A stretch of DNA of 64,000 nt from Sclerodactyla briareus (lineage: Eukaryota; Echinodermata; Holothuroidea; Dendrochirotida; Sclerodactylidae). This document shows positions 20,598-55,400 of the stretch, piece by piece. Location: contig JAODTK010000699.1 of the NCBI GenBank assembly GCA_026419785.1, forward strand, positions 352,001-416,000. The letters run 5' to 3'. A program made the translations under genes and the position numbers. Each line of letters starts with the position of its first letter. Positions within the stretch are counted from its first letter, which is position 1. The notes under the pieces were generated by a model. It saw only the letters and a program-made list of their open reading frames with translations. It was not told the origin of the DNA and searched no databases.

Positions 20598-20982
20598 TTT
20601 ATCGCAGTGATCGTGTGTGTTTGGTTGGTCCGGTTTGCATTACGATGAATTGATGATACCTAGCTCGGGTTGTTAAAAACTCCCTTGTAGAACGCGAAAC
20701 GTTCGAATCAGTACATTTAGCACAGTTGTACACGATGTCACCCGATCATCGAAACGTTATCTGGCAACCCGATTCACATCTTGAACACGACTATTTATGA
20801 GCTCCAGGGGAACAACGAATTGGCAAAACGGTAACATATCTAAGAAAGTTTCACCACGTTCGTCGAACTGAGACCGTTCATCCCGTTTTCGAGAATATCA
20901 AAACATTACTAATTGTCAAGACATTACTATGGATGTGCTTGAAGTTGCTAAAACGTCGACGAAAAGTGGTGAACAAAGGCTG
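20598..20982 (-). other. Likely upstream region of the minus-strand gene
   Basis: On the minus strand an octamer-like ATGCAAAC lies about 40 bases before the ATG. No TATA box was seen. The stretch ends where M2-A begins. Role inferred from position. Confidence 0.3.
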
Positions 20983-22890
20983 AAAATATTCTATGAGAGA
21001 GGATTGTTGTATTGGGTTTGTGAGTGTTGATGATCACTCTGGTTGAGAGAAAGACAACAGAATTAACTTTTGCGGAATTTTGAGGTAAATTTTAAGACAC
21101 GAAATGATGGAATACATATCATAATTATCTGTGTTGATCAACTGGTATGTCATGCGCTATTGCGCATTATGGTTTTCTCTGATTTCATAACGGACCAAAT
21201 ATTGAAAGCGAACAACTTCAAATAGGTGCATCGTATCGAAGAGTCAGCAGTTGTCCTTTATTTTTGTTATCGTGTCACAGGGCTGAAGTCAAAATGGTAA
21301 AACGCAGTCGCCGAGCGCAATCTCTTGCCAGATTATCCAAACCTATGAAATTACCTTCCCAGACTACGAGTTGTGAACATTTAGCTGGGAATGTTCCAAA
21401 GAGAATAAACATGTTTAACTCATTTTTCAGAGTATGATTTCTTTGTTATGTCTAGGTAATTAGCCAGATCTAACTCCCACAAAAAAAAGTATCTTTAATC
21501 ATCAAACCCCGACACAATTTAAATTTCAAGTGTCAAGAAGCGCAATTTACCGTAGAGATTGTATGCAACGCGCCTTCAAATTGAAAGATTTCAATATGGG
21601 CAGTGACGTTGTGATTTTATGGAAAAAAGCTTACTTCGAAAAGTCTCATTGTAGAAATTGTCTTATGTCCGGGTAATTAGCCAGGGCTATCTTTCAATCG
21701 AATTCCTACTGGTCGCTGAAATGTCCAACTATGCCGGCGTTTTCATTTTTTTTTCCTCGGAGAGAGGGAGGGGGATTCGAAACTCTACTAGCGACGCTAC
21801 TTAGAACATACCTTCGAGGTTCCTTGTCTTTAGTGAGGGCGGGATTTGTTCAGGTGGTATAGACAGTGGCAGCAAACATCCCTTGGTGAACCTGGAGAAT
21901 GATATCAAGAATGGTTGCTTTTCGAATATTATGTATGTAGCAGTACTCCATTTGTTTGATTGAAATGTTATCTGCTGGCAACTATCTTTTCTCTATGTTA
22001 CTTATTACTATGTTACACTTTTTTCCATGCTGTCAGCTTCTATGAAATTCGTCAGACATTCACACATTCGAGAGACATTGCCATCTGATAGTTACAAGGT
22101 GGGGTATCGAATCAATGCAATACCGATATGGTATAACTTTGATGGGGAATTAGTACCGGTGCCGATACAACGCGAAACGATGTTGTCATGATTCCATGTG
22201 AACGGCCTCGCCCATTATTCGCTATGTGTTGAGGGATGACCATGTATCGGTATTAAGTTTTCACTGGCGATGAATATAATTTGAAGTCGTGCCCTAAAAG
22301 TCTTATTATTATTAATAATATTATCTCATTTTTATATAGCGCTTTTTCACGTCGGAGACATACTCAAAGCGCTCAAAGCGCTTTACAGATATCACCCAGG
22401 GTCATTAATGACTTGTCATACCCGTGCTATAGAGCACGCACTCCTTGTTGTTCTCTCAAAGCCCGGACATGCTGTACTGGAGCACCTATTCAGAGCAGAA
22501 GTCCGTGTAGAACTGAGTTGCTAAGCCCCGACAGCGCCCTCACTTATAGTAGTAGTATTATGTGATTTGGGCGACATGATTCGCATTCCGTCAAAAGATT
22601 AGAATATGTTCCGTTTGGCAGCCTCCTCAGATTCGAGCTTCACATTAATAAGCTCAAGTCGACTTCACGCTTAGATGGTGTTCTGCCAGACGCGATCGAT
22701 TTGTATTTCCGTATTAATTATGTTGTGTCTGTGCTTCCGTAATAGAACGTCTGACTTTCTCGCTTTTTTTTCTATAAACAGGGTAACAGTCACATGAAGA
22801 CGTTCCAAAATCTTGCACTATGATATACTATATTTACTATAAAGCAACAAAGGTATGCGTCGGGGTATTTGGTAGGAGAAATTCGCAGAT
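20983..22890 (+). repeat. Large direct repeat module M2, copy A, left part
   Basis: Matches 35,745-37,640 and parts of 53,325-56,345 in order and orientation, starting at ATTCTATGAGAGAGGATTG. The first about 1.2 kb of M2 seen in copies B and C (34,565-35,745 and 52,855-53,325) is missing here. The copy is cut at 22,890 by a LINE and goes on at 25,998. A short frame MVKRxRRAQxxARLSKPMK (21,296 on) is shared with copy B but broken in copy C. Confidence 0.85.
22325..22560 (+). repeat. Short TATATAGCGCTT-type dispersed repeat
   Basis: ATATAGCGCTTTTTCACG, CTCAAAGCGCTTTACAGATA and CATACCCGTGCTATA occur here, near 37,097, 40,442 and (poorly) 55,945, as part of M2. The AGCGCTTT and AAAGCGCT words are partly inverted. 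Similar short words end the LINE relic at 8,181. Confidence 0.6.
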
Positions 22891-22893
22891 CAG

Positions 22894-23031
22894 TTTGTGG
22901 ATGTTTCGTGTTTCTGGGGAAAGAGGGATTTTTTCGCTAAGGATGGTCTTCACCTTAATGGTGCGGGGGCTTCAGTGTTAGGCCAATTAGGCAAGTTGGT
23001 AAATGTCTGCGTGGAAGGGTTGTTAAACTAA
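22894..23031 (+). pseudogene. ORF1 C-terminus with esterase-type DGLHLN motif
   Basis: Reads FVDVSCFWGKRDFFAKDGLH, LNGAGASVLGQLGKL and on to a TAA at 23,029. The DGLHLNxxGxxVL signature matches the Asp-x-x-His block at the end of SGNH/GDSL esterase domains, which are known in ORF1 of many CR1-like elements (published as CR1 esterase domains). The rest of ORF1 was lost by 5' truncation. Frame is open over the 45 codons left. Confidence 0.7.
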
Positions 23032-23159
23032 TTTGGGGGCGAGGGTTTCTGGTGTCCGTAGGCTTACTGGCAGGGTTGTTAATAGTAAGCAGCGCAGTGG
23101 GAGGTCTGGCGAGGTCAACAGTAGCGATAGATATGTTAGCCAGCTGTCTTTTCCTGTGC

Positions 23160-25900
23160 TAATGTTCAAAGTATCAGGAACAAGTTTGATGAGTTGCAGA
23201 TTTTAGTCCAGGAACGCAAGCCTGACGTCATTGGTATTACAGAGTCGTGGTTGAACAGTGATATTTCCACAGCCAATGTTCACCTTCCTGGTTATGTTGT
23301 TTATAGGCAAGATAGGACCGATACTCCAAGTGGCATTGGTGGTGGAGTTTTGTTGTATGTGAGGGTCGACTGAATAGGTTTTGAGAGGCCGATATTGGTG
23401 AGTTTTGTCACTCTGTTTGGTGTGAAATTCCGTCTAACTCATCTGGTATTCCCAGTTCTCTAATAGTTGGCGTTGTGTACCGTTCTCCAAATAGCTCTGA
23501 AGACAACAACTCTCTTCTTTCCGACATGCTTTTCGAAGTTTCTAGGAAGAGTGCAATCATTATGGGTGATTTCAATTATCCAGATATTTCTTGGTCTGAT
23601 TGTACTAGTGGCAGTCATGGATCTGGCTTTTTCAATGTCATGCAGGATGTTTCCTTTCTCAGCATGTACATTTTCCTACCAGAAGCATAATATTTTGGAT
23701 TTAGTTTTGAGCAGTGATCCAGATTCTGTAGAATGCTTGGGTAAGCTCGGTGCAAGTGATCACGATATTTCTGCTTTCAATGTGTCTTGTTCCGTCAATA
23801 TCGCACAGAGTGTAGAGCTTGTTCCTTGTTTCGCGAAGGCCAATGTCGATGGCCTTTCTAGGTTTTTTAGCGAAATAGATTGCCTTAAATTGTTAGAAAG
23901 TACGAATGCTGTTGACTCTTGGAATGGTTTCATTGAAAAGATTAACAAGGTTATGAAAGTTTACGTTCTTGGAGGAAGCGTCGCAGTGAGAACAAGAGGC
24001 CTTCCTGGATGAATAGGGAAGTTATCCTGGCCATCAAACGTAAGCGACATTTATGGCGAGTTTATCGTGCTTCTGGGTCCGTGTCTGAGCTTGAGCATTT
24101 CAAAGTTCAGCAAAAGCTTGTCCAGCGTTTTGTTTCTGGTGCTAAACTTGATTTTGAGAGGCAGATTGCCTCTAATATCAAGGAGAATCCTCGTGCATTT
24201 TTCTCTTATGTGAGGGGGAAGCAGAAAGTCAAGGACAGCATTGGTCCTTTGATAGATTCCGACTCGGGTAGTACAATCAGCGATAGCCAGGAGATGGCTA
24301 AGGTTCTCAATAATTATTTCTCGTCTGTTTTTAACCATGAGAACTTGATAATTTTGGTGACCTAGTTGTCGGGGTTTCTCCGCATAGTATTGGTAATATG
24401 GTGTGCTCGCCTGGTTTAGTAAAGGAGAAACTGCAGGAGCTCAAAAGTGATAAAGCGCTGGTCCTCTGACGGATTTTGTCCTTTCTACTAAAATCCTTTG
24501 CCGACGAGTTGTCTGTTTCCATAGCTATTAGTGTCCAATAGGATCTGCAAAAAAAAAACGAAGTATTGTTCCGGATGATTGGAGGAGAGCAAAGTTTCTC
24601 CCATTTTCAAGAAAGGTAAGGTCTCTTCCTTGTTATTACAGGCCTTACTCGTGTTGTCTGCAAGGTAATGGAATCAATCATTCGGATCATATGGTTGATT
24701 ATTCCAATGAGCATAGTCTGATTAGGATTCTCAGCATGGGTGTAGGAAAAATCGTTCGTGTTTGACTAATCTCTTGGAATTTATGGAAGATGTTACATGT
24801 TCTGTTGACAACGGCAATGCTGTTGATATAATTTTCCTGGACTTTCAGAAAGCTTTTGACAAGGTTCCGCATGAGCGTCTCTTGCTCAAGTTGGAAAGCT
24901 TTGGCATTGAGGGGAATGTCCTTAAGTGGATTCGTGAGTGGCTTCATATAGGGAACAACGAGTTGTCATTAATGGGCAGTGGTCTTCTTGGCAAATGGTG
25001 GTTTTCCCCAGGGATCGGTTCTCGGCCGTTACTCTTTCTGGCGTATATTGACGATCTTGAAGGTTCTGTTCATTCCAGGGTTAAGAAGTTCGCAGACGAT
25101 ACCAAGTTGTATCGGGAGGTCGGTTCTAATGATGATGCTGCAATTGTTCAAAGGGATCTGGATATAATTTCCAGATGGTCTTCCGACTGGCAAATGTTTT
25201 CCAATGTCGACAAGTGCAAAGTTATGCATGTTGGTTTTCACAATCGCAACGCTTCCTTCAAGTTAAATGGCCAAAATATTCAGGAGGTGATTTCAGAAAA
25301 AGATCTTAGGTTTGTTTTGATTCTTCTTTGAAACCTTCCAAACAGTGTGCCGAAGCTGCTAGAAGAGGTAATTGGATTCTTGGCTTGATTAGACGTCCAC
25401 TTCAGTTTCCTTGATAATGATATTGTTGTCAGGCTGTTTAAGCACCTGGTGAGACTACACCTAGAATATTCTGTACAAGTGTGGAATCCCTACTTTGCAA
25501 AAGACAGGTAGGTTATTGAAAACGTTCAGCGTAGGGCAACTAGAATGATTGACTGTCTGACAAATTTATCCTACGAGGAAAGATTAAGGCGTTTCGGTCT
25601 AACTACCATGGAGCTGAGGCGAATCGGGGTGACTTGATCCAGGTTTTCAAAATTGTCCATGGACTCGATGGCCTGTCCTTCCACTACTTCTTTGAATTTT
25701 CCAATGTTACTGCAAATAGAATCCACTGTCTCAAGCTTCGTGGCAAGCGCTGCAGATTGGACATTCGTAAATATTTCTTCTCGCAGAGAGTGATCAATGC
25801 GTGGAATTGTCTTCCTGAAAATGTTGATCTCTCTGAGAGTGTGAATGCGTTCAAGAACAGTCTTGATTTATTTTTCAGGAATCACGGGCGAATTATTTAG
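23160..25900 (+). pseudogene. LINE ORF2: AP endonuclease plus reverse transcriptase
   Basis: The endonuclease shows its catalytic blocks in order: NVQSIRNKF (about 23,170), GITESWL (about 23,233), MGDFNYPDISW (23,562) and GASDHD (23,749). After a linker (WMNREVILAIKRKRHLWRVY at 24,007) comes the reverse transcriptase: IIFLDFQKAFDKVPHERL (about 24,828), a broken PQGSVLG box (about 24,991, in another frame), KKFADDTKLY with the catalytic FADD at 25,089, then thumb motifs (HLEYSVQVWNPYF near 25,460) and the tail RVINAWNCLPENVDLSESVN ending at a TAG at 25,898. At least five frame changes or stops lie between. All active-site residues except those of the broken B box can still be seen. Family: CR1-like by motif order, tail and ORF1 type. 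Confidence 0.9.
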
Positions 25901-25997
25901 TGGTTTGGTTCATTTTTCTTTCCTGGATGTTGTGGCTTCGGGGTCGTTTATGAGGATTTTGTCCTTCCTGACCCTTATTCACTAAACTAAACTAAAT

Positions 25998-28050
25998 AGA
26001 TAGAGAGTAGACAAACTGAATGTGTTTCACGATGTTGCACACGATGGGTGTAACTATTCCTAGCCTTATTATCATATTACATTATTATTATTATTATTAT
26101 AGTTATATTTACTATCCATTCTTCATGTCTTAGTAAACTTCCCATATTGTTCAACTACTTTAGTGATTTCATTCTCTATATGCTATATGCATTTTGTTTC
26201 ATACTGTTTTGTTGTTATGGTGAGGACTTCGGGTAAGATTAGTTCTGGTTAACCGAGTTTTTACCCTTTTAAACGTCGGAATAGAAAAATGGAATAACAA
26301 AAACAGGGCGCCTCCTCACTTTGAGTTTGTAGTCTCTGATGGGACTTTGAACAGGGCACACAATACGCAGTCTAATGACCTCTCCAGTTAATATAATGGC
26401 ATCATGGTTCTCTCACGACGTACTATTCCAGTTCGTCACCTCATCGTGTCCCCTTGGGGACTTCCCAATAGGGCGGCCACATACGGCGCTCGCTACTATT
26501 CACATGTCACCTCACAAGGTACTCATTTTGATACGTGAGTGAGTGGCGCGCGACATATCAGAAAACATGCCTCTTCCAACAGCACTGCGGAAAAATCCTC
26601 GGGCCTCCAATGGGCTCCGAACTCACGATCACTAGTGTTGCAGTCTGGAGCTCTACCGACTGAGCCAATCCGCCTCCCTGTCTTCGGAGGGCCTCCGAAC
26701 GTATTGCCCACACGAACTGCATTTTACTGCCCCCCCCCCCCCCATACCGTGAGTCGGCACCACTTCCCATGCTCTATTGCCCTCTTAATTGTACATTGCC
26801 TAATTAGTACATGATACTGTTGGAGATTTTTTTTGTCATCGATTCATTACAGGTCAATTATTCAAAATTGATATATGACAATGTAGCTGTCTGGATACCG
26901 GTATTTTTTGTTTAATAACTAATTCCACGGTCATTCAGAGGTCACTAACGAATTACTAAGCATTTTATGAAACACTTCATCACGCCATCCCGCTGTCAAA
27001 ATGACAAAACCTTCTTGTGTTTACTTTGTACGTACAGTCAATGACATAGGGGACAATTGAAGATCATCCCACTTCTCGACAGTACGGAACTGTTATTGTC
27101 CTAAAAAACGGCTTGAAACTCATGTGGTATAACCCACAGTGTGATTGTCCGGAACTCCTCAGTCATTTACGACTGCCCGTTACATTGTCGGCGATATTTC
27201 TACATTCCCGAATAGCGGCAGGGTATACTGGTCATTGCCAGTAGTACAGTAGTGTAAGCACGTAGCACTGAAAATGTTACCGAGGATCATCTACATTTAG
27301 AATACCTGGGGCTATTATTGTAGCTGAAAACCAAAAACCAAATTAAGAGTGAATGACAAAGTTACATTTGTTCGTATTATCAGATAGCAGAGGATTGCCG
27401 CTGGTGTATTCTAACAACTGAATCAAACCACAGGGTTATCATAACTATAAAATCGAGTCTATCAGCCCAAGTGACGCTGCGAAACATTCATGTCAAAGAG
27501 GGTACCGAATATGGACAGACTCATTTACGGTGATCAATTGATAGTATACTTCTAAATTTAAGTAACTTACGTCACTTTCTTGAGTTGTTCACACTTCTCT
27601 CGTAGACAGCAATGCGAATCACCATGCTCCTCCGATATGACTAGTCCTACCTTTCCCTTCGCAGCTGATCTCATCTCAATCTCCCTCTAATTCTATGATG
27701 TTGCACTCTCAGGTCCCGAGTCCATAATAGGTTTCCACCAGCCATAACCGACTCATCAAGAGATTGATTCAACCGAAGACAGGAAATAGGGATCTGTAGA
27801 TAAAAGAAAAGCAGATGGAATTCAAGTGACAGTAGAGCTGAGAGGCAAGGCTATGGGAGGGAATCTCGCTTCCAGTTCAGAGAGAAGAAACTGATTGAAC
27901 CATTCACGGTTGCGTTTGGTCAAGTCTGATTGACCGATTAGTAACAAATTGATGCAATTTATGACATTTTCGTAGCATTTGTTTGATTAAGATTGCTAAC
28001 AGTCAATAGGCCCTATTATTCCGACTCATTCATCCATTCATTTAGTTCTA
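25998..28050 (+). repeat. Large direct repeat module M2, copy A, right part
   Basis: Continues M2-A after the LINE. It matches 37,640-39,690 to the end, and 56,350-56,900 of copy C. Contains the tRNA-like unit at 26,612-26,672 and a C tract at about 26,731-26,744. Homology ends where an ATT microsatellite starts. Confidence 0.85.
26612..26672 (-). repeat. tRNA-like SINE head inside M2-A
   Basis: On the minus strand TGGCTCAGTCGGTAGAGC (26,667-26,650) fits a Pol III A box, ACTGCAAC an anticodon loop (GCA, Cys-like), and GTGAGTTCGGAGCCC (26,626-26,612) a weaker B box. Stems are imperfect, so it is not a working tRNA gene. The same unit lies in M2-B and M2-C. Confidence 0.65.
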
Positions 28051-28074
28051 AGTTCTATTTTTCCAGTTTTTCCA

Positions 28075-28209
28075 TTATTATTATTATTATATTATTATTA
28101 TTATTCGTATTATTATTATTATTATTTTATTATTATTATTATTATATTATTATTATTATATAGGGGTTATTATTATTATTATTATATAGGGGTTATTATT
28201 ATTATTATT
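28075..28209 (+). repeat. ATT microsatellite with TATAGGGG interruptions
   Basis: ATT repeats broken by ATATT and by the phrase TATAGGGGTTATT, seen twice. The same phrase occurs twice more at about 28,577-28,620. Confidence 0.9.
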
Positions 28210-28576
28210 TCTCGTGGGGAGGCAGGTACAATAAAATGAAGCGGATCATTTTTTCCGACCATATGACAAAGGCGGCCATAATATGTTTATTATTTCCCAC
28301 TTTGTTGAGAGTGAACTGAATTAAGGGCTTGTTTGACCCGCCGTGGTAACAGCAAGTTGGGAGACCCTGTTGACCCATTTTTATTTATATTCTATTTAAA
28401 AAACAGACATTGTCGTCCGGTATCAACTGAAGAACAAGGGGATACGTCTTTCGCATAACGATACTACGAAAACCTCAGCGCAATCCATTATCAGTACGGT
28501 ATGTCGTCACTATTCAATGCAATTATTGCGATATGCGTTGTGCGATATATATACGGTTGTGTGAAATCGAGCGTCC
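28210..28576. other. Unassigned sequence between two ATT tracts
   Basis: Not found in other M2 or M1 copies. No coding signal. It may be part of the element that carries the hammerhead motif or an insertion into an ATT tract. Confidence 0.35.
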
Positions 28577-28652
28577 ATTATAGGGGTTATTATTATTATA
28601 TAGGGGTTATTATTATTATATTATTATTATTATTATCATTATTAATAATGAA

Positions 28653-28710
28653 CTCAATCTGCAGACAGTCCTGTTTCGCTCTTTTAGAGCTCATCAGAGC
28701 AGCTCATAGT
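28653..28710 (-). ncRNA. Hammerhead ribozyme motif, type I-like, short stem III
   Basis: Minus strand, 5' to 3': CTGATGA (28,697-28,691); stem II GCTCT/AGAGC with an AAA loop (28,690-28,678); GAAA (28,677-28,674); stem III A-U, C-G, A-U, G-C closed by a 2-base GA loop (28,674-28,665); then C at 28,664, the expected cleavage site after UC. Stem I pairs CTGC (28,702-28,699) with GCAG (28,662-28,659) after one U-U mismatch, with weaker pairing beyond. Thus all conserved core bases of a hammerhead and both neighbouring stems are present in correct order. Known animal hammerheads with such short stem III occur in satellite DNAs, retrozymes and Penelope-like elements, and often need dimers to cut. 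A (TAA)n tract follows on the same strand. Activity is not shown; the stem I mismatch lowers confidence. Confidence 0.7.
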
Positions 28711-29819
28711 GTGAATCGGGAGTTTTCGAAATATCAACTAACAAACAAGCTGAAACCTGCCCAGGCCTACCTTCCACAAGGACGCAGTGTCTGTGAATTC
28801 CATAGTGAACGAGCTCGTAAGAGCGTGCGTTGCGTAATGCAAATAAAATTGCGTCTTGAAAATTGAAACAAACAAGACTCAACGCGCCTTCCCGAAGCTA
28901 GAGTGCTCAACAAACTACATTTAATTATATATACTAACATGCGATGTTCCTCTGGTTCAATTAATGGGAGGTTTGCGTCAATAATTACTTTTAAGTACTG
29001 TTTTGTGCCTGCATTTTTTACCCTCTTCCAATTGACGGCGCTCGGAACTTTGTCTATTCATTGGATTATTTGCACTACTCTATGTTTAGTAACGCTAACG
29101 GCAGGGGTATGTTCCTTTGCTCTCGATCCCTTGGTATGAAACTACCAGGAAATGTTCTCCACACCTCCATGTTGGGAGACTTTACCCCTTGATCACAGCT
29201 GCGGAGTATGAGACTCATAGAAGGCATGTGACGATAATAACAGCGCTTTAAAAAAAAATTGAGCTCTATTATTTGATTGCCTAGAGGAATTACAATCTAA
29301 GTTTTCAATATATCAGGACTGCGTAGCCTACATTCGATTCAGATAGGGTTAAGTCGTGAAGGGAAAGAACAAATTGGGTGCATGCGTGCGCAGTATGTCT
29401 ATCATGTCTTGGAACGTTGAAACAACAAATTGACTAATAAACGAATCGACCCACGAGCTGCTTCCCAGCTTAACCCATCGTGAATATTTTTCTTTCAATT
29501 TTCAGCTCAGTTTGACAAATATGTATATGACCGATTCAGGGGCTTGTAAGTGTCCGTAAACACGTGCGATATCGTCATATATTATTCACGGCTAATTGTT
29601 GCAAAATTATACACGGGCTGTGAGCTCTGGATTGCTGAATAAGCTCATAATAGGGGGGGGGGGGGGTTGCACGCGCCTGGATTCGTGTCTGAGTAGGGAA
29701 CGTAAATTACATCTGGATGTTTGAATTGCACTATATTACACGCTTGTGGTGATGTGTAGTTAGACTAATCGGCTCAGGAATGCCACGCAATTGCAAAATT
29801 AGGTATCATTTGCTCAACG
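28711..29819. other. Unassigned; 5' side of the hammerhead element
   Basis: On the minus strand 28,870-28,711 would be the leader of any hammerhead-bearing retroelement. I see no reverse transcriptase. A G tract lies at about 29,654-29,666. The rest up to M1-B shows nothing. Confidence 0.35.
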
Positions 29820-32800
29820 TGCACACCACCCAGAATATTACGCTGATTTTTTTTTTTATCACATTATGGTCATATTGGAGTTATTGTAATTAAAGCAGTT
29901 AACAGGAACCATTGTATGATTGTTGGACGAGAAGTACAGATGCCATGAAAGTGCGGCATTTAGTTTCCAGGTGTTCACAATATCACGGGATTGTTGTGGT
30001 GTGAATGCATTGAGCTATGACTCATCAGAGCTTACCGACATCACGAACTAAACGATTTAGGTTCGTTGACTGTGGTTCTAGAATGCATTTTCTTCCAGAG
30101 CGGAATGAGCGTTCGAGCATTCAGCTCCGACCAACATCTGGACTTGTAATTTTTTTTCATGAAAGCCGAACAATTCGGGACCTGTATGTATCACGTTTAT
30201 TTTTCCTTTCTTTTTTCATTGCAATCCGAATCCATATTTTAATGATCACGCGATTGGTAGCTTTGTTCAATTGGAACACCAACTTTGTGAGCCATATTAT
30301 TATATACCTATCAACTGATGCAGCCTAGTAACCATTGTTCTTATTACGCTTGGCAATGGCGCATATACCATATGCAGTATGAATTCTGTGAAGAAAACGA
30401 ATCTGAACGTATTGTGATTCTCATCTCTTATAAGCACCTAAGTAAGCAAAAGATACATTCCCAGTTGTAATCACGCTGGTCTGCATTTTGGCATGACCAT
30501 GGCTGTGAGGCTATCTGATACAAATTTAAACGACTGATAGGTAATATTTTGGCACTGACTGTCCCGGCGATGTCATTACACATGTCTCATTGTATATTTG
30601 ATTTGCTCTGTCAGTTTTCCACGTATTCGGAATGGCCGAAATGAAACTGTAATAGGGGGTGAATAGGGAGTTCCATGTAAGTTTTTTGTTAATCAATGAA
30701 AACACGAGTCACATATGCCTTCACTCCAGTAGAACCTTCACGGAAACAATCTGCCCATTAATCTTAATAATCGGGTAAACGTTACCCACAACTCTCCACA
30801 CGAACATACTTAGACACTCGTGCGTGCTGTATAAATCCGGATTTTCTCCTACAAAGAAGTAACCAGTTACATGGTTTTCTGAGTGAGACGAGGTCGTACC
30901 TCAACTGTATGCCATCTTTGATCGAACCGTACCAGTGCTTGTTGTTTATGATCCTCTATGTCATTCCATCAGGTCATGTAATGCGAACTATTTTAGGTGT
31001 CATCTTCTGCCGTAGTATGTGATGATCTGCCATAAGAGTACAGGGACGTCAATTCTATGCCCTATGGCTCAAAAGACCATACTACAACGTGTATTAGCGA
31101 TCATTATAATGAAAAATTGAATGGGGTGAGAATCTCGTGAGTTGAAAATTGGGTATGAGTTGTCTGGTCGCGGATTTTCGGTTAGGTATATTCAAGTAGT
31201 ACTTGCACAGGAGGTCTTTGCATGGGTTAGAATTGCCTGGTTCGGCATTACATAATTATGATAAGGTCTACTAACACATCTGTAGTTGTCTCTACACTAA
31301 TTCATATGCGGGTCCCCACGCAACTGAGAATAACAACGATATCCTGTCTGGTCTAGACAGCCAGTCAGCACATCTGAGGGATGATACTTACACCAGCTGC
31401 TGAAGCCCTGGTCAGTTCCTGAACCATCCACTTGTGCTCCTGTTGGTCACTCTGGTTGATGACAACCCTTTCTGGCAGACGCGCGCTAGAATCAAGTACC
31501 TGTATCAAATTACCAGGGTTGTTTCAATATAAAAGCATCTTTTGTTTCAGCCCAATTTTCCCCAGTGACCCAATTGATGATCGCTCCATGCGTACAGGTA
31601 TTTTTTGCCCACACGAAACATAGCTCTTCGTTGCTCTCAACCCCATGCAGTACTCCGGGTTGCCTTCTGACATTTCTGAATCCTTACTGCACTCGTAATG
31701 TGGTCATAAATATCGCTCAATGTATCCACTGGCATTCGGGTGTAAGCGGGAGGGGAGGGGGGGGGGGACTGACGCCGCCCGAGTTCAATATCAGTTAAGG
31801 ACTCGCAACATTGTCCAGGCGTTGATTGATGCGACCACCTATATCTAGCTTTGACATGTATAGGCTGGGGACGCTAATTTGGTAAGAATGCAGGATTTTA
31901 TTTCGTTAGATTTGAGTTACTCGTGATTTGAGTGTCTCGGGACACACTTTATCGTGATCTAATTCCCGCATTCAAGGCTACTCCGTGAGTTAGCGAAGAC
32001 AAAACAAACAACGAACAAACAAAACACGTGTCAGACCTTGTTGGATGTGTGTCATGCCTTTATTTTGTTGGATTTGCGTTGAAGTCTCTCGAGACACACA
32101 CAGTCTTGTTTGATTGGCGCGTTCAACGCACACAATGAGTCGCAAATTAAACAAGAACAAAAAAAACGAAACAAGATACGAACATATCAGCATCTTCGAC
32201 CACAGTGAGTCAGTGTGTCCAGGACCCCGAGTGATTATCCTTTTTTTTCTTGATATGTGTTAATATTCGTTTTTTTATTCTTATATTCGTATTTCGTTCA
32301 GCTAATTTGAAAAGTTGGTTGACCTCAATAATGGATCACTATAATGAAATCTGAGATTGTCATTGTCACAGCTGAATAATATGTCTTGCATACAACGGTA
32401 TTGGTGGTTCTTACTATATAAAACAAGAGCATTCCGTGATCGTATACTTGTCCAACTCATGTATCCACTACGTTTAATTTCGAAGTTTGCAAGCACCTCT
32501 TTTCAGGGCCTTCACTCCACACACACTCACCGAGGCTTACACAGTACGACAATGACGACCTGAACCCACTGTGTGCATGCCTGAATGTTATACTAGTAGC
32601 AGTTACTATAACCAGAATGTAATGCATGCCTGCAAACTGATGAAAGAAAACACTTTCCCATAATATATTCCCTACGTTCATTTCGAGGTTTGCAAGCACC
32701 ACTTTTGAGGGTCTTAACTCCGAACACACTTTCTGAGGCGTACACAGTACGACAATGACGACCTGAACCCACTGTGTGCATGCCTGAATGTTATACTAGT

Positions 32801-35703: not shown

Positions 35704-38256
35704 TTCTTTATGATTTATTGCATTCTACACATTATTTCAATTTGAAGAATATCCTATGAGAGAGGATTGCTGTATTGGGTTTGTAAGTGTTGATGATCAC
35801 TCTGGTTGAGAGAAAGACAACAAAATTAACTTTTGCGGAATCTCGAGTTGAATTTAGGACACGAAATGATGGAATACATCTCATAATTATCTGTGTTGAT
35901 CAACTGGTATGTCAGGTCGCTCTTACCAATTATGATTCTCTCTCCAGTTTGCGTCTTTCTCTTCATAACGGACCGAATATTGAAGGCCAACAACTTCACA
36001 TAGGTGCATCGTATCGAGGAGTCTGCAGTTGTCCTTTATTTTTGTCAGCGTGTCACATGGTAAAACGCAGGCGCCGAGCGCAATTCTCTGCCAGATTATC
36101 CAAACCTATGAAATCAACTTCCAGGACTACGAGTTGTGAAGATTTAGTTGGGAATGTTCCAAAGAGAATAACCATTTTTACTCATTTTTCAGGGTATGAT
36201 TTCTCTGTTATGTCTAGGTAATTCAGCCAAAATCTAATAAAAAAAATTATCTTAATCATCAAACCCCGACACGATCTAAATTTCAAGTGTCATGAAGCGC
36301 AATTTATCCTATAGATTTTATGCAACGCGCCTTCAATTGAATGATTTTAATATGGACAGTGCCGTTGTGATTTTTATATGGAAAAGCTATGTCTTAGTTT
36401 GAAAAGTCTCATTGTAAGAAAGTGAATTATGCCCGGGTATTGCAGAGCTACCTGTCAATAAAATTCCTACTAGTCGCTGAAATGCAACTATGCCGCGTTT
36501 TCATTTTTTCCTGGGAGAGGTGGGGAGGGGGGATTCGGAACCCTACTAGCGACGCCACTAAGAACATACCTCCGAGGTTCCTTGTCTTTAGTGAGGGCGG
36601 GATTTGTTCAGGTGGTATAGACAGTGGCAACAGACATCCCTTGGTGAACCTGGAGAATGATATCGAGAATGATATCAAGAATGGTTACGGTTGGAATGTT
36701 ATGTATGTAGCAGTAACTCCATTTGTTTGATTGAAGCGTTATCTGCTGGCAACTATCTTTCCTCTATATTAACACTTTTCTCCGTGTTGTCTGCTTCTAT
36801 TAATATCGTCAGACATTCACACGTTCGAGGGACATTGTCGTCTGATAGTAACTTGATGGGGTATCGAATCGATGCAATACCGATATAGTGAGAAACTTCA
36901 ATGGGGAATTAGTACCGGTGTCGATACAACGCGAAACGATGTTTGTCATGATTTCATGTGAACGGCCTCGCCCATTATTCGCTAGGTGTTGGAGGGGTGG
37001 ACCATGCATCGGTAATAAGTTTTCACTGGCGTTGAATATAATTTGAGGTCGTACCCTTAAAGTCTTATTAATGATAATAATAATAATATCTCGTTTTTAT
37101 ATAGCGCTTTTCACGCGAAGACATGCTCAAAGCGCGTACAGATATTACTCCTGGTCATTAATGATTTGTCATACCCGTGCTATATAGCACGCACGCCTTG
37201 CTTGTTTTCTCAAAGCCCCGGACATGCTGTGCCGGAGCTCCTATGCAGAGCAGAAGTCAGTGTGGAACTGTTTGTTATGCTCCCGACAGCGCCCTCACTT
37301 ATAGTACATATTATATGTGATCTGGGCGACATGATTCGTATTCCGTCAGAAAATTAGGATATGTTCCGTTTGGCAGCCCCCCTCATTGATTCGAGCGTCA
37401 CTCATAAAGCTCCGGTCGACTTCACGCCTTGATGGTGTTTCTGCCAGACGCGATCGATTTGTATTTCCGAATTAATTATGTTGTTTCTGTGCTTCCGTAA
37501 TAGAACGTCTGACTTTCTCGCTTTTTTTTTTAAACAGGGGAACACTCACTGAAGACGTTCCAGAATCTTGCACTATGATATACTAGATTACTATAAAGCA
37601 ACAAAGGCATGCGTCGGGGTATATGGTAGAAGAAGTTCGAAGGTTGAGAGTAAACAAAGGAATGTGTTTCACGAGTCACACAATGGGTGTAACTTTTCCT
37701 AGCCTTATTATCATATAACATTATTATTATTATTATAGTTATATTACTATCCATTCTTCATGTCTTAGTAGACTTTCCACATTGTTTAACTATTTTTAGT
37801 GATTCCATTCTCTATATGCTATATGCATTTTGTTCCATACAGTTTTGTTGTTATAGTTGGGCTCCGGGTAAGATTAACGTTCTGGCAAACCGAGTTTTTA
37901 CCCTTTTAGAACGTCTGAATAAAAAATGAAGAATAAATAACAAAATAGGGCGCCTCCTCACTTCGAGTTTGTAGTCTCTGATGGGTCTTTGAAAGGGCAC
38001 ACAATACGCAGTCTGATGACCTCTCCAGTTAATATAATGGCACCATGGTTCTCTCACAACATGCCGTACTATTCCAGTACGTCACTTCATCGTGTCCCTG
38101 GGGGACTTCCCAATAGGGCGGCCACATACGGCACTCGCTACTATTCACAAGTCACCTCACAAGGTACTCACTTTGACACGTGCGTGGGTGGCGTGGGACA
38201 TATGAGAAGACATGCCTCTTCCAACAGCACTGCGGGAAAGTCCTCGGGCCGCTAAT

Positions 38257-38316
38257 GGGCTCCGAACTCACAATCACTAGTGTTGCAGTCTGAAGCTCTA
38301 CCGACTGAGCTAATCC
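38257..38316 (-). repeat. tRNA-like SINE head inside M2-B
   Basis: Same unit as at 26,612: A-box-like AGCTCAGTCGGTAGAGC and B-box-like GTGAGTTCGGAGCCC on the minus strand. Confidence 0.6.
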
Positions 38317-39690
38317 GCCTCCCTATCTTAGGAGAGCCTCCGAACGTATCTTCACACAAACTGCATTTTACTGCCCCTCCCCCCCATACTCTGAGTCACG
38401 CACCAACTTTCAAATGTGATCGTCCTCTTGTAGATTGCCCAATTAGATGATGCTGTTGGAGAGTTTTTTTGTCATCGATTCATTATAGGTCAATTATTCA
38501 AAATTGATATATGAAAATGTAGCTGTCTGGATACCGGTATACTAACTAATTCCACAGTCGTCAGAGGTCACTAACGAATTACTAAGCATTTTATGAAACA
38601 CTTCATCACGGCATCCCGCGGTCAAAATTACAGAACATTCGTGTGTTAACTTTGTACGTACATTAATGACATAGGGGACAAAGATCATCCCACTTCTCGA
38701 CAGTACGGAACTGTTATATCCTTAAAAAAACGGTTCGAAACTCATGTGGTATAACCCACAGTGTGATTGTCCGGAATTCCCCAGTCACTTACGATTGCTC
38801 GTTACATTGTCGGTGATATTTTTACATTCCCAGATAGCGGCTGGGTATCCTGGTCATTGCCAGTAGTACAGTAGTGGAGCACGTAGCACTAAAAAAGCTA
38901 CCGAGGATCATCTACATTTAGAATACCTGGGGCTATATATTGTAGCTGAAAACCCAAAACCAAATCAATAGTAAATGACAAGTTACATTTGTGGCATTAT
39001 CGGATAGCAGAGAGATTGCCGCTGGTGTATTCTAACAACTGAATCGAACCCACATGGTTATCATCACAGTATAAAACCGAGACATGTTCTAGTCTATCGG
39101 CCCAAGAGACGCTGCGAAGCATTCATGTCCCCTTGTTTAATATTTAAAGTGGGTACGTATATGCGACAGACTCATTCAGGTGATCAATTGATAGTATACT
39201 TCCAAATTTAAGTACTAACGTCACTTTCTTGAGTTGTACCACACTGCTCTGCGTATGACAGCAATCCGATCACCATCTCCTCCGATATATCGAGGTTCTT
39301 CCCGTTGATCTCAATCTTCTTTAATGTCGATGATGGTTGCACGCTCAGTCCCGAGTCCAGTAATAGGTACCACCAGCCGGACCCAGACTACCAGAGATGA
39401 TCGAACCGAAGACAGGAAATAGGGATCTGTAGATGCAAAAAAAGCAGATGGTATTCAAGTGACAGTAGAGCTGAGAGGCAAGGGCAATGGGAGGGATTCT
39501 CGCTTCCAGTGCAGAGAGATTGAAACTGATGCCATTCAAAGTTGCGTTTGGTCAAGTCTGATTGACCGATTAGGAACAAGTTGATGCAATTCATGACATT
39601 CTCGTAGCATTTGATTAATAAAGATCGCTAACATGATTAGCAGTCAATAGGCTCTATTATTTCTACTCATTCTTCCATTCATTCATTATA

Positions 39691-54079: not shown

Positions 54080-55400
54080 CGCATGGCTTGTGAACACAGT
54101 ACCTCGACCACACCTTGATGGTGAAGCTCATACTTTGTATGTGTGTTCCCCATGAGATTACATAATGGTTGTCTGATCGGTTTCAAATTGGTATGTAGCT
54201 TCTTATGGGGATACCGGAACCCTATTGTTTTCCGTGTATAGGTCGGGGGTGAATTTTCAGTCAGTCAGGATAGAACATTTGGTGAAAAATCAATAAATTT
54301 GCCAATTGTTATCTTGTGAACACGATAACTTGACCCCCTGGATGGATGAAGCTCATACTTGGTAGTGTGTTCCCCATGATGAATACATTGACTCCTATTG
54401 TTTTGGTTCCATGTCAGAGGTCATCTGAGGTCACCAGAGGTCAAGTCTGAAAACCTTGTGAACACGATAAGTAGACAGAATGGTTGGTCTGGTCGGTTTG
54501 ATTGAAATTGGGTATGTAGCTTAGTATGGGGAGACAGGAACCCTATTGTTTTCGGATGTTCGGGGTGAATCAGTCAGGAATAGAAGAACATTTTGTGAAA
54601 AATAATAAATGTGGCACTTTTAGATTGTGGACACGATAATTGACCCACCTGGAGGGACTGAATGAAGCTCATACTTGGTATGTGTGTTCCCCATGATGAG
54701 TACATGCACCCTATTGTTTTGGAGTCATTGGTCAGAGGTCATCTGAGGGAGTCACCAGGGTCAAAGTCTGAAAACCTTGTGAAAAAAAAGTCCAGAATGG
54801 TTGGTCTGATCGGGTTCAAATTGGCTGTGTAGCTTTCTTATGGGGGAGAGTACAGGAACCTATCGTTTTGGTATAGGTCGGGGGTTGGAAATTTCGGTCA
54901 AAGATAGGAAATTGTGAGAAGTCAATAATTGGCCAATTTTGGTTGTGAACACGATAACTCGAGTCCACTTGGATTGGATTGGAGCTCATACCTGGTAGGT
55001 GTGTTCCCAGATGAGTAAATGAAACCTTTTGTTTTTGGGGCAGGTCAGAGGTCATCTTGAGGTCACCAGCGGGCAAATTTGAAATCCTCGTGAACACGAT
55101 GAGTCCAGAAGGGTTGGTCTGATCGGTCACATTTGGTGTGTAGCTTTCTTATGGGGAAGACAGGAACTTTATTGTTCTTGGTATAGGTCGGGGGTGAATT
55201 TTGTCAAAAGATAGGAAATTTGTGAAAAGTCAATATTTGGCCAATTTTGGTTGTGAACACATTAAACTCGAACCCACATAGAGGAATGATGAAAGCTCAT
55301 ACTTGGTATGTGTGGTCCCATGGATGAGTACATGAACCCTATTGTTTTGGGGTCAGGTCAGGGTCATCTGAAACACAGAGGTCAAGTCTGAATCCTTGAA
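54080..55400 (+). repeat. Tandem array, unit about 312 bp, about four units
   Basis: GAAGCTCATACTTxGTATGTGTGTTCCCCATG-type text recurs near 54,120, 54,349, 54,664, 54,980 and 55,290; each full unit also has GGTTGGTCTGATCGG and CCTATTGTTTTxGG. The first unit is shortened. Units differ by many bases and small gaps. Arrays of this type are common in deuterostome genomes, by recollection. It sits with the GT tract as a foreign block inside M2-C. Confidence 0.88.
54418..54443 (+). promoter_or_regulatory. Triple AGGTCA, 4-base spacing (DR4 geometry)
   Basis: AGGTCA at 54,418, 54,428 and 54,438 with TCTG and CCAG between. Two overlapping DR4 sites are the classic layout bound by thyroid hormone receptor/RXR-type and LXR/RXR-type dimers in vertebrates. 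Other units of the array keep worn versions (near 54,730, 55,037, 55,353). Binding is not shown and the motif comes with the repeat. Confidence 0.35.

Follow-up and report, generated by a model that had tools for sequence, protein, structure and literature searches.

The window analysed here is a 64,000-nucleotide stretch of contig JAODTK010000699.1 of the holothuroid Sclerodactyla briareus. Near its middle lies a small repeat unit, slightly shortened, that carries one hammerhead ribozyme at its 3' end and is followed by an AAT repeat. The features of the locus are as follows.

28646..28921, minus strand: retrozyme copy of ~0.9 unit, 5' end near 28921 and 3' end near 28646 (nhmmer family profile)
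28642..28714, minus strand: hammerhead ribozyme of type I, 3'-terminal in the copy (Rfam HH9 and descriptor scan)
28691..28697, minus strand: core CUGAUGA (sequence)
28678..28690, minus strand: stem II, 5 bp, with AAA loop (sequence)
28674..28677, minus strand: core GAAA (sequence)
28665..28674, minus strand: stem III, 4 bp, with GA loop (sequence)
28663..28664, minus strand: predicted cut site, between C17 (28664) and 28663 (hammerhead numbering and sequence)
28659..28702, minus strand: stem I, 4 bp, 28699-28702 with 28659-28662 (sequence)
28587..28645, no strand assigned: ATT/AAT microsatellite directly 3' of the copy, on the probable target side (tandem repeat finder, 28587-28644; typed AAT in sense)

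The initial annotation of this DNA had described the parts of a hammerhead on the minus strand in their exact order. Inspection of the sequence bears this out, with every named part present. The sequence and a descriptor scan give the CUGANGA and GAA core, A15.1-U16.1, H17 and three stems with stem I open, which is the type I arrangement. The cleavage position is one that we assume from established hammerhead numbering; with C17 at 28664, the cut is predicted between 28664 and 28663. In the window ribozyme the stem I pairing is preceded by a U.U mismatch (28698/28663).

Of the known hammerhead models, Rfam HH9 (RF02275) matches 28642-28714 on the minus strand over its whole length, with the same order of stems and a similar stem II. 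The covariance search that had been proposed as a check thus gave a match (28.3 bits, E 1.3e-4 in a 1.4-kb search), although one below the gathering score of 52. At curated thresholds no hammerhead is listed in an Rfam scan of the whole window, nor is there a match in 20 loci that include the window's own place. When an E-value threshold is used instead, 15 related loci give 11 matches, all of them HH9, the best at 34.1 bits against the curated 52. The strict hammerhead descriptor has a single match in the window, at this same place, and none in 300 simulated 64-kb windows (first-order Markov, both strands). A chance hammerhead-like motif, which the low Rfam scores throughout the family might suggest, can be rejected as practically negligible in view of the simulated windows and of a repeated family in which 26 of 59 ribozymes have intact cores. 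Energy folding alone gives the structure no support, since in minimum-free-energy folds of isolated window and consensus pieces stem II forms and the complete three-way fold is absent. The circular fold of the unit, at -93.9 kcal/mol and without a shuffle control, is not counted as evidence. We regard the hammerhead as genuine as a motif, and from its sequence self-cleavage is predicted.

The assembly searched for relatives comprises 319 Mb (319,486,128 bases in 3171 contigs). A DNA search returned at least 94 matching pieces; 40 of the 399 first-look candidates were scored, so that the counts of loci and copies are lower bounds. The pieces were grouped by hand into at least 38 loci, the window's own included, and all 38 were inspected. 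The query for this locus search contained the window copy's own 3' end. Most of the loci hold one copy or a short run, and they are spread over different contigs. In profile searches the 38 loci resolve into 39 chains with lengths from 0.42 to 14.67 units, the longest arrays being L009 (~15 units) and L010 and L011 (~5 each). Thirteen tandem units measured 292-335 bp, with a majority unit of 307 nt, and each unit of the family has a hammerhead. The window copy has one hammerhead only and lacks a second, its length being ~0.9 unit.

No coding sequence was seen in the 307-nt unit, and the reverse transcriptase and GIY-YIG endonuclease that define a Penelope-like element are not encoded by it. 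There is no LTR pair around a central region; single copies span at most one unit and are flanked by repeats of the target type. The hammerheads have type I topology, not the type III hammerheads within LTRs that characterize plant LTR retrozymes. What is found instead is the repeat pattern of metazoan non-LTR retrozymes, that is, units within ~170-400 bp, occurring singly to in tandem, each with a type I hammerhead. Such non-coding units of ~170-400 bp with type I hammerheads were described by Cervera and de la Pena 2020 (PMC7229834), in the available text of which the elements also resemble the present family in their single-to-tandem copies, low GC and lack of LTRs. To judge from its sequences, the family fits the known metazoan non-LTR retrozymes. 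The proposal of a small non-autonomous retrozyme whose ribozyme-bearing end lies in the window is upheld by the 38 or more loci, the tandem units of ~300 bp and the hammerhead in every unit.

Two side observations concern hammerheads and copies elsewhere. At L034 two chains look by eye like parts of a single copy, interrupted by an insert of ~1.2 kb (L034:1705-2871), which has inverted ends and a short duplicated target and lies inside the retrozyme copy; it may be hAT-like. The shorter of these chains extends as far as the limit of the sequence retrieved. Also, a hammerhead-like sequence on the minus strand of a viral contig (L046:8600-8665, IMGVR_UViG_3300005614_000010) shares the 25-nt core and stem II of the family in an unrelated context, and is perhaps convergent.

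How well has the ribozyme been preserved in these copies? Ribozymes that span the region number 59, and 26 keep all 12 core positions scored, so the expectation that other genomic copies would keep the core bases held; 17 miss one position, 10 two, 4 three and 2 five. The core shows no excess conservation (identity 0.878, against 0.885 in the rest of the unit), and when sets of 12 columns are drawn at random from outside the core, 68% equal or exceed it in conservation. In an alignment of 23 ribozymes picked by hand from the 59, standard pairs fill 89.1% of pair cells. No compensatory change occurs at any pair among these 23, and pairing is no better than with shuffled partners. With a core as variable as the unit and no compensatory change, the copies look like neutrally decaying products. 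The case for the ribozyme is one of a match to a known ribozyme, an intact majority sequence and a repeated family.

The first pair of stem I is A-U in 20 of the 23 aligned relatives, and the U.U of the window copy is, on this comparison, decay; next to the cut site, it probably impairs the window ribozyme. Across the family, stem I continues past an internal loop into an outer helix, which is paired in 86.8% of cells in the 23 ribozymes. This makes it like the canonical type I hammerhead and not the minimal one. The initial annotation had named retrozymes and Penelope-like elements as bearers of such hammerheads, and here the retrozyme part stands and the minimal Penelope type does not.

The ends of the copies carry the main finding. 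Of the 37 loci that can be evaluated, 34 end by eye at GATTGAGT or immediately beyond it, which places their 3' end ~10-20 nt past the cut (degenerate in L017, L020, L021 and L039). The 3' end lies elsewhere in L019, L030 and L033, and L034 is not evaluable. L019 runs into sequence resembling a LINE reverse transcriptase, again by eye. In the interior of arrays the sequence passes on into the next unit at the fixed 3' site. When the window copy is counted together with L020 as a single insertion, and L013 with L014 as a second, probable one, the count becomes 32 of 35. To allow for a query that included the 3' end of the window copy, chains spanning 1.3 units or more were taken separately, as in these the body of the query matches wherever the 3' end falls. 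The fixed 3' end is found in 12 of 14 such chains, or 11 of 13 with L013 and L014 merged, with binomial probabilities of 1.5e-14 and 2.7e-13 for a 15-nt target on 307 positions, where both the target width and the 1.3-unit limit were chosen after the data had been seen.

The 5' ends, on the other hand, vary between unit positions 2 and 231. A cluster of them lies at unit positions 33-49, near the 3' start, in 9 of 38 (L013, L014, L019, L025, L030, L031, L032, L040 and L042; binomial 1.8e-4), or 8 of 37 (8e-4) with L013 and L014 merged, an interval that was picked after seeing the data. It is as if copying often halts after one full turn, which we mention as a lead only.

The sequence beyond these ends is also regular. 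Flanks were typed as AAT, ATT or AT over 100 nt on each side, in the sense orientation. Of the 39 chains, 22 could be typed on each side, and in all 22 the two flanks agree in type and orientation (AAT 10, ATT 7, AT 5), an agreement reached by none of 20,000 shuffles. With L014 removed 21 of 21 agree, again with 0 of 20,000 shuffles. Typing rests on short runs in L010, L022, L023, L036 and L044. Neither flank was typed in 6 chains, only the 5' flank in 5 and only the 3' flank in 6, the window copy among them. In background windows away from the elements, 42 of 1529 were repeat-positive. Since the two sides agree, the repeat was probably in place before insertion.

Simple-repeat tails are made by some LINEs, and the repeat beyond the 3' end had originally been read as a (TAA)n tail of the element. 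The repeat is indeed there, and a tail made by slippage of the reverse transcriptase would suit the six chains typed on the 3' flank only, one of which is the window copy. However, the repeats are of three types, and the 5' flank has the same type and orientation in every chain typed on two sides, which makes target DNA the better reading. A slippage tail is disfavoured by these flanks, and we think it scarcely probable.

Target-primed reverse transcription is recognized by 3' ends that are fixed, 5' ends that vary and target repeat to either side of the copy, and the occurrence of all three together points to that process here. Copies whose synthesis starts beyond the cut and proceeds through the ribozyme also argue for a template that was continuous across the cut site. 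A cleaved linear monomer is excluded, for such an RNA begins at the cut and a start at this site would yield only 10-20 nt. The template should thus be a circle or an uncut multimer, and the DNA by itself fits either. We propose that tandem transcripts would cleave themselves at the hammerhead and that ligation of the monomers would yield circles. Priming at an AT-rich repeat that has been opened, a reverse transcriptase may then start ~10-20 nt past the cut site, go back through the ribozyme and continue round the template, making anything from part of one turn to many. Copying would end at variable points and so leave variable 5' ends. Our main reading, to which we give a probability of about 0.7, is that the window contains a non-LTR retrozyme of the metazoan type, in an old and slightly shortened copy which arose by copying primed at an AT repeat, with a Penelope-like element as the likeliest helper.

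Could the family instead be a hammerhead satellite that multiplies chiefly as DNA, through unequal exchange, and whose scattered fragments were carried about with AT microsatellites when these recombined or slipped? Long arrays do exist (L009, L010 and L011), and one insertion has been copied by segmental duplication, giving the window copy and L020. Most loci, however, are single or short, lie on different contigs and have the same 3' end with different 5' ends, as is expected of reverse transcription and not of exchange. Spread by exchange is accordingly improbable.

The choice of helper is less clear-cut, and the neighbourhood of the window copy bears on it. The family profile matches 28646-28697 and 28699-28921, and a second profile 28648-28916. 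L020, 43 kb off on the same contig, aligns to 27212-30203 at 74% and has the same 5' junction; the retrozyme insertion must then predate the duplication. Modules of the window are repeated within it, 20981-28042 resembling 35743-39683, and 29855-30500 resembling 565-1295. As a separate observation, these diverged duplications have 73-85% identity, form the sets 20981-28042/35743-39683/53323-56899 and 565-1295/29855-30500, and extend beyond the window to L020. A tandem array with a 313-bp unit (3.9 copies) occupies 54164-55392.

It had been stated that no reverse transcriptase lies near the hammerhead. This was wrong, as a broken LINE at 22889-26002 contains an RVT_1 fragment (24726-25328, E 2.8e-18) 3.3 kb from it. 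The LINE, which lies in the module 20981-28042, is missing from the paralogous module, which has an empty site at 37642-37646, and is thus a separate insertion. For this reason, and because it has no AAT-repeat end, it is disfavoured as the source of the retrozyme. A PDB search with the reverse transcriptase fragment gave no match, and a tRNA search found none.

A LINE might still have mobilized the same retrozyme in place of a Penelope-like element, the AT repeats then reflecting a LINE endonuclease or existing breaks. LINE sequence is present in the window, and similarity or reading by eye places more of it near L016, L029, L044 and L019. Nematostella hammerhead repeats have been described with LINE-like target duplications of 15 bp (PMC4918200). 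These duplications allow for another helper or rule and speak against a single rule for all animals. Against a LINE in the present family, nothing links the 3' end of the window LINE to the unit, this LINE lacks the repeat end noted above, and target duplications are unreadable inside microsatellites. We consider mobilization by a LINE rather unlikely.

The Penelope-like helper remains our best guess by analogy with Poseidon of Anolis. In this Penelope-like element copying starts inside the RNA, ~85-92 nt past the cut, while its protein cleaves ATT within AT-rich DNA and takes mostly unprocessed RNA as substrate in vitro (PMC11167929). It is this internal start past a hammerhead, together with the ATT cut in AT-rich DNA, that favours such a helper. 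The use of unprocessed RNA as the dominant substrate in vitro makes an uncut multimer a serious alternative to the circle. As described there, Poseidon and the present family have in common tandem copies, a hammerhead, an internal start past the cut and an AT-rich target with ATT. Poseidon differs in encoding a reverse transcriptase and a GIY-YIG endonuclease, in its minimal hammerhead and in its start at 85-92 nt instead of 10-20 (PMC11167929). The fuller proposition, that Penelope-like machinery opens AT microsatellites and copies circular RNA from a near-fixed point past the cut for less than one to many turns, is offered tentatively, at somewhat below even odds.

Other hammerhead retroelements are more distant. 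Plant LTR retrozymes, in the account available (PMC4918200), are likewise non-autonomous hammerhead retroelements with a proposed circular RNA, but they have type III hammerheads in LTRs, a primer-binding site, a polypurine tract and 4-bp target duplications. The fixed 3' end past the cut and the microsatellite target, here known from DNA alone, set the family apart from the metazoan retrozymes as they are portrayed in the accessible portion of PMC7229834. A literature search of titles and the beginnings of abstracts found no description of microsatellite targeting by animal retrozymes. The new part, as far as the sequences go, seems to be the insertion rule, a fixed 3' junction combined with an AT-repeat target.

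According to the available part of a 2020 review (PMC7761336), animal retrozyme repeats have no conserved motif from which an autonomous retrotransposon could be deduced. The insertion rule bears on how they re-enter DNA and on which helper they borrow. Insertion at AT microsatellites with a fixed 3' junction can be checked for in other genomes and rebuilt in vitro, and the end that most relatives have in common, with the AT-rich sites that many of them occupy, hints at how such elements spread. The genomic DNA argues for a template continuous across the cut site, whether circular or uncut. If it was circular, the junctions would tie the abundant circular RNAs of animals directly to genome change. 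If, further, Penelope-like machinery did copy such circles, genomic junctions would be a record of target-primed reverse transcription of circular RNA and would name the missing helper.
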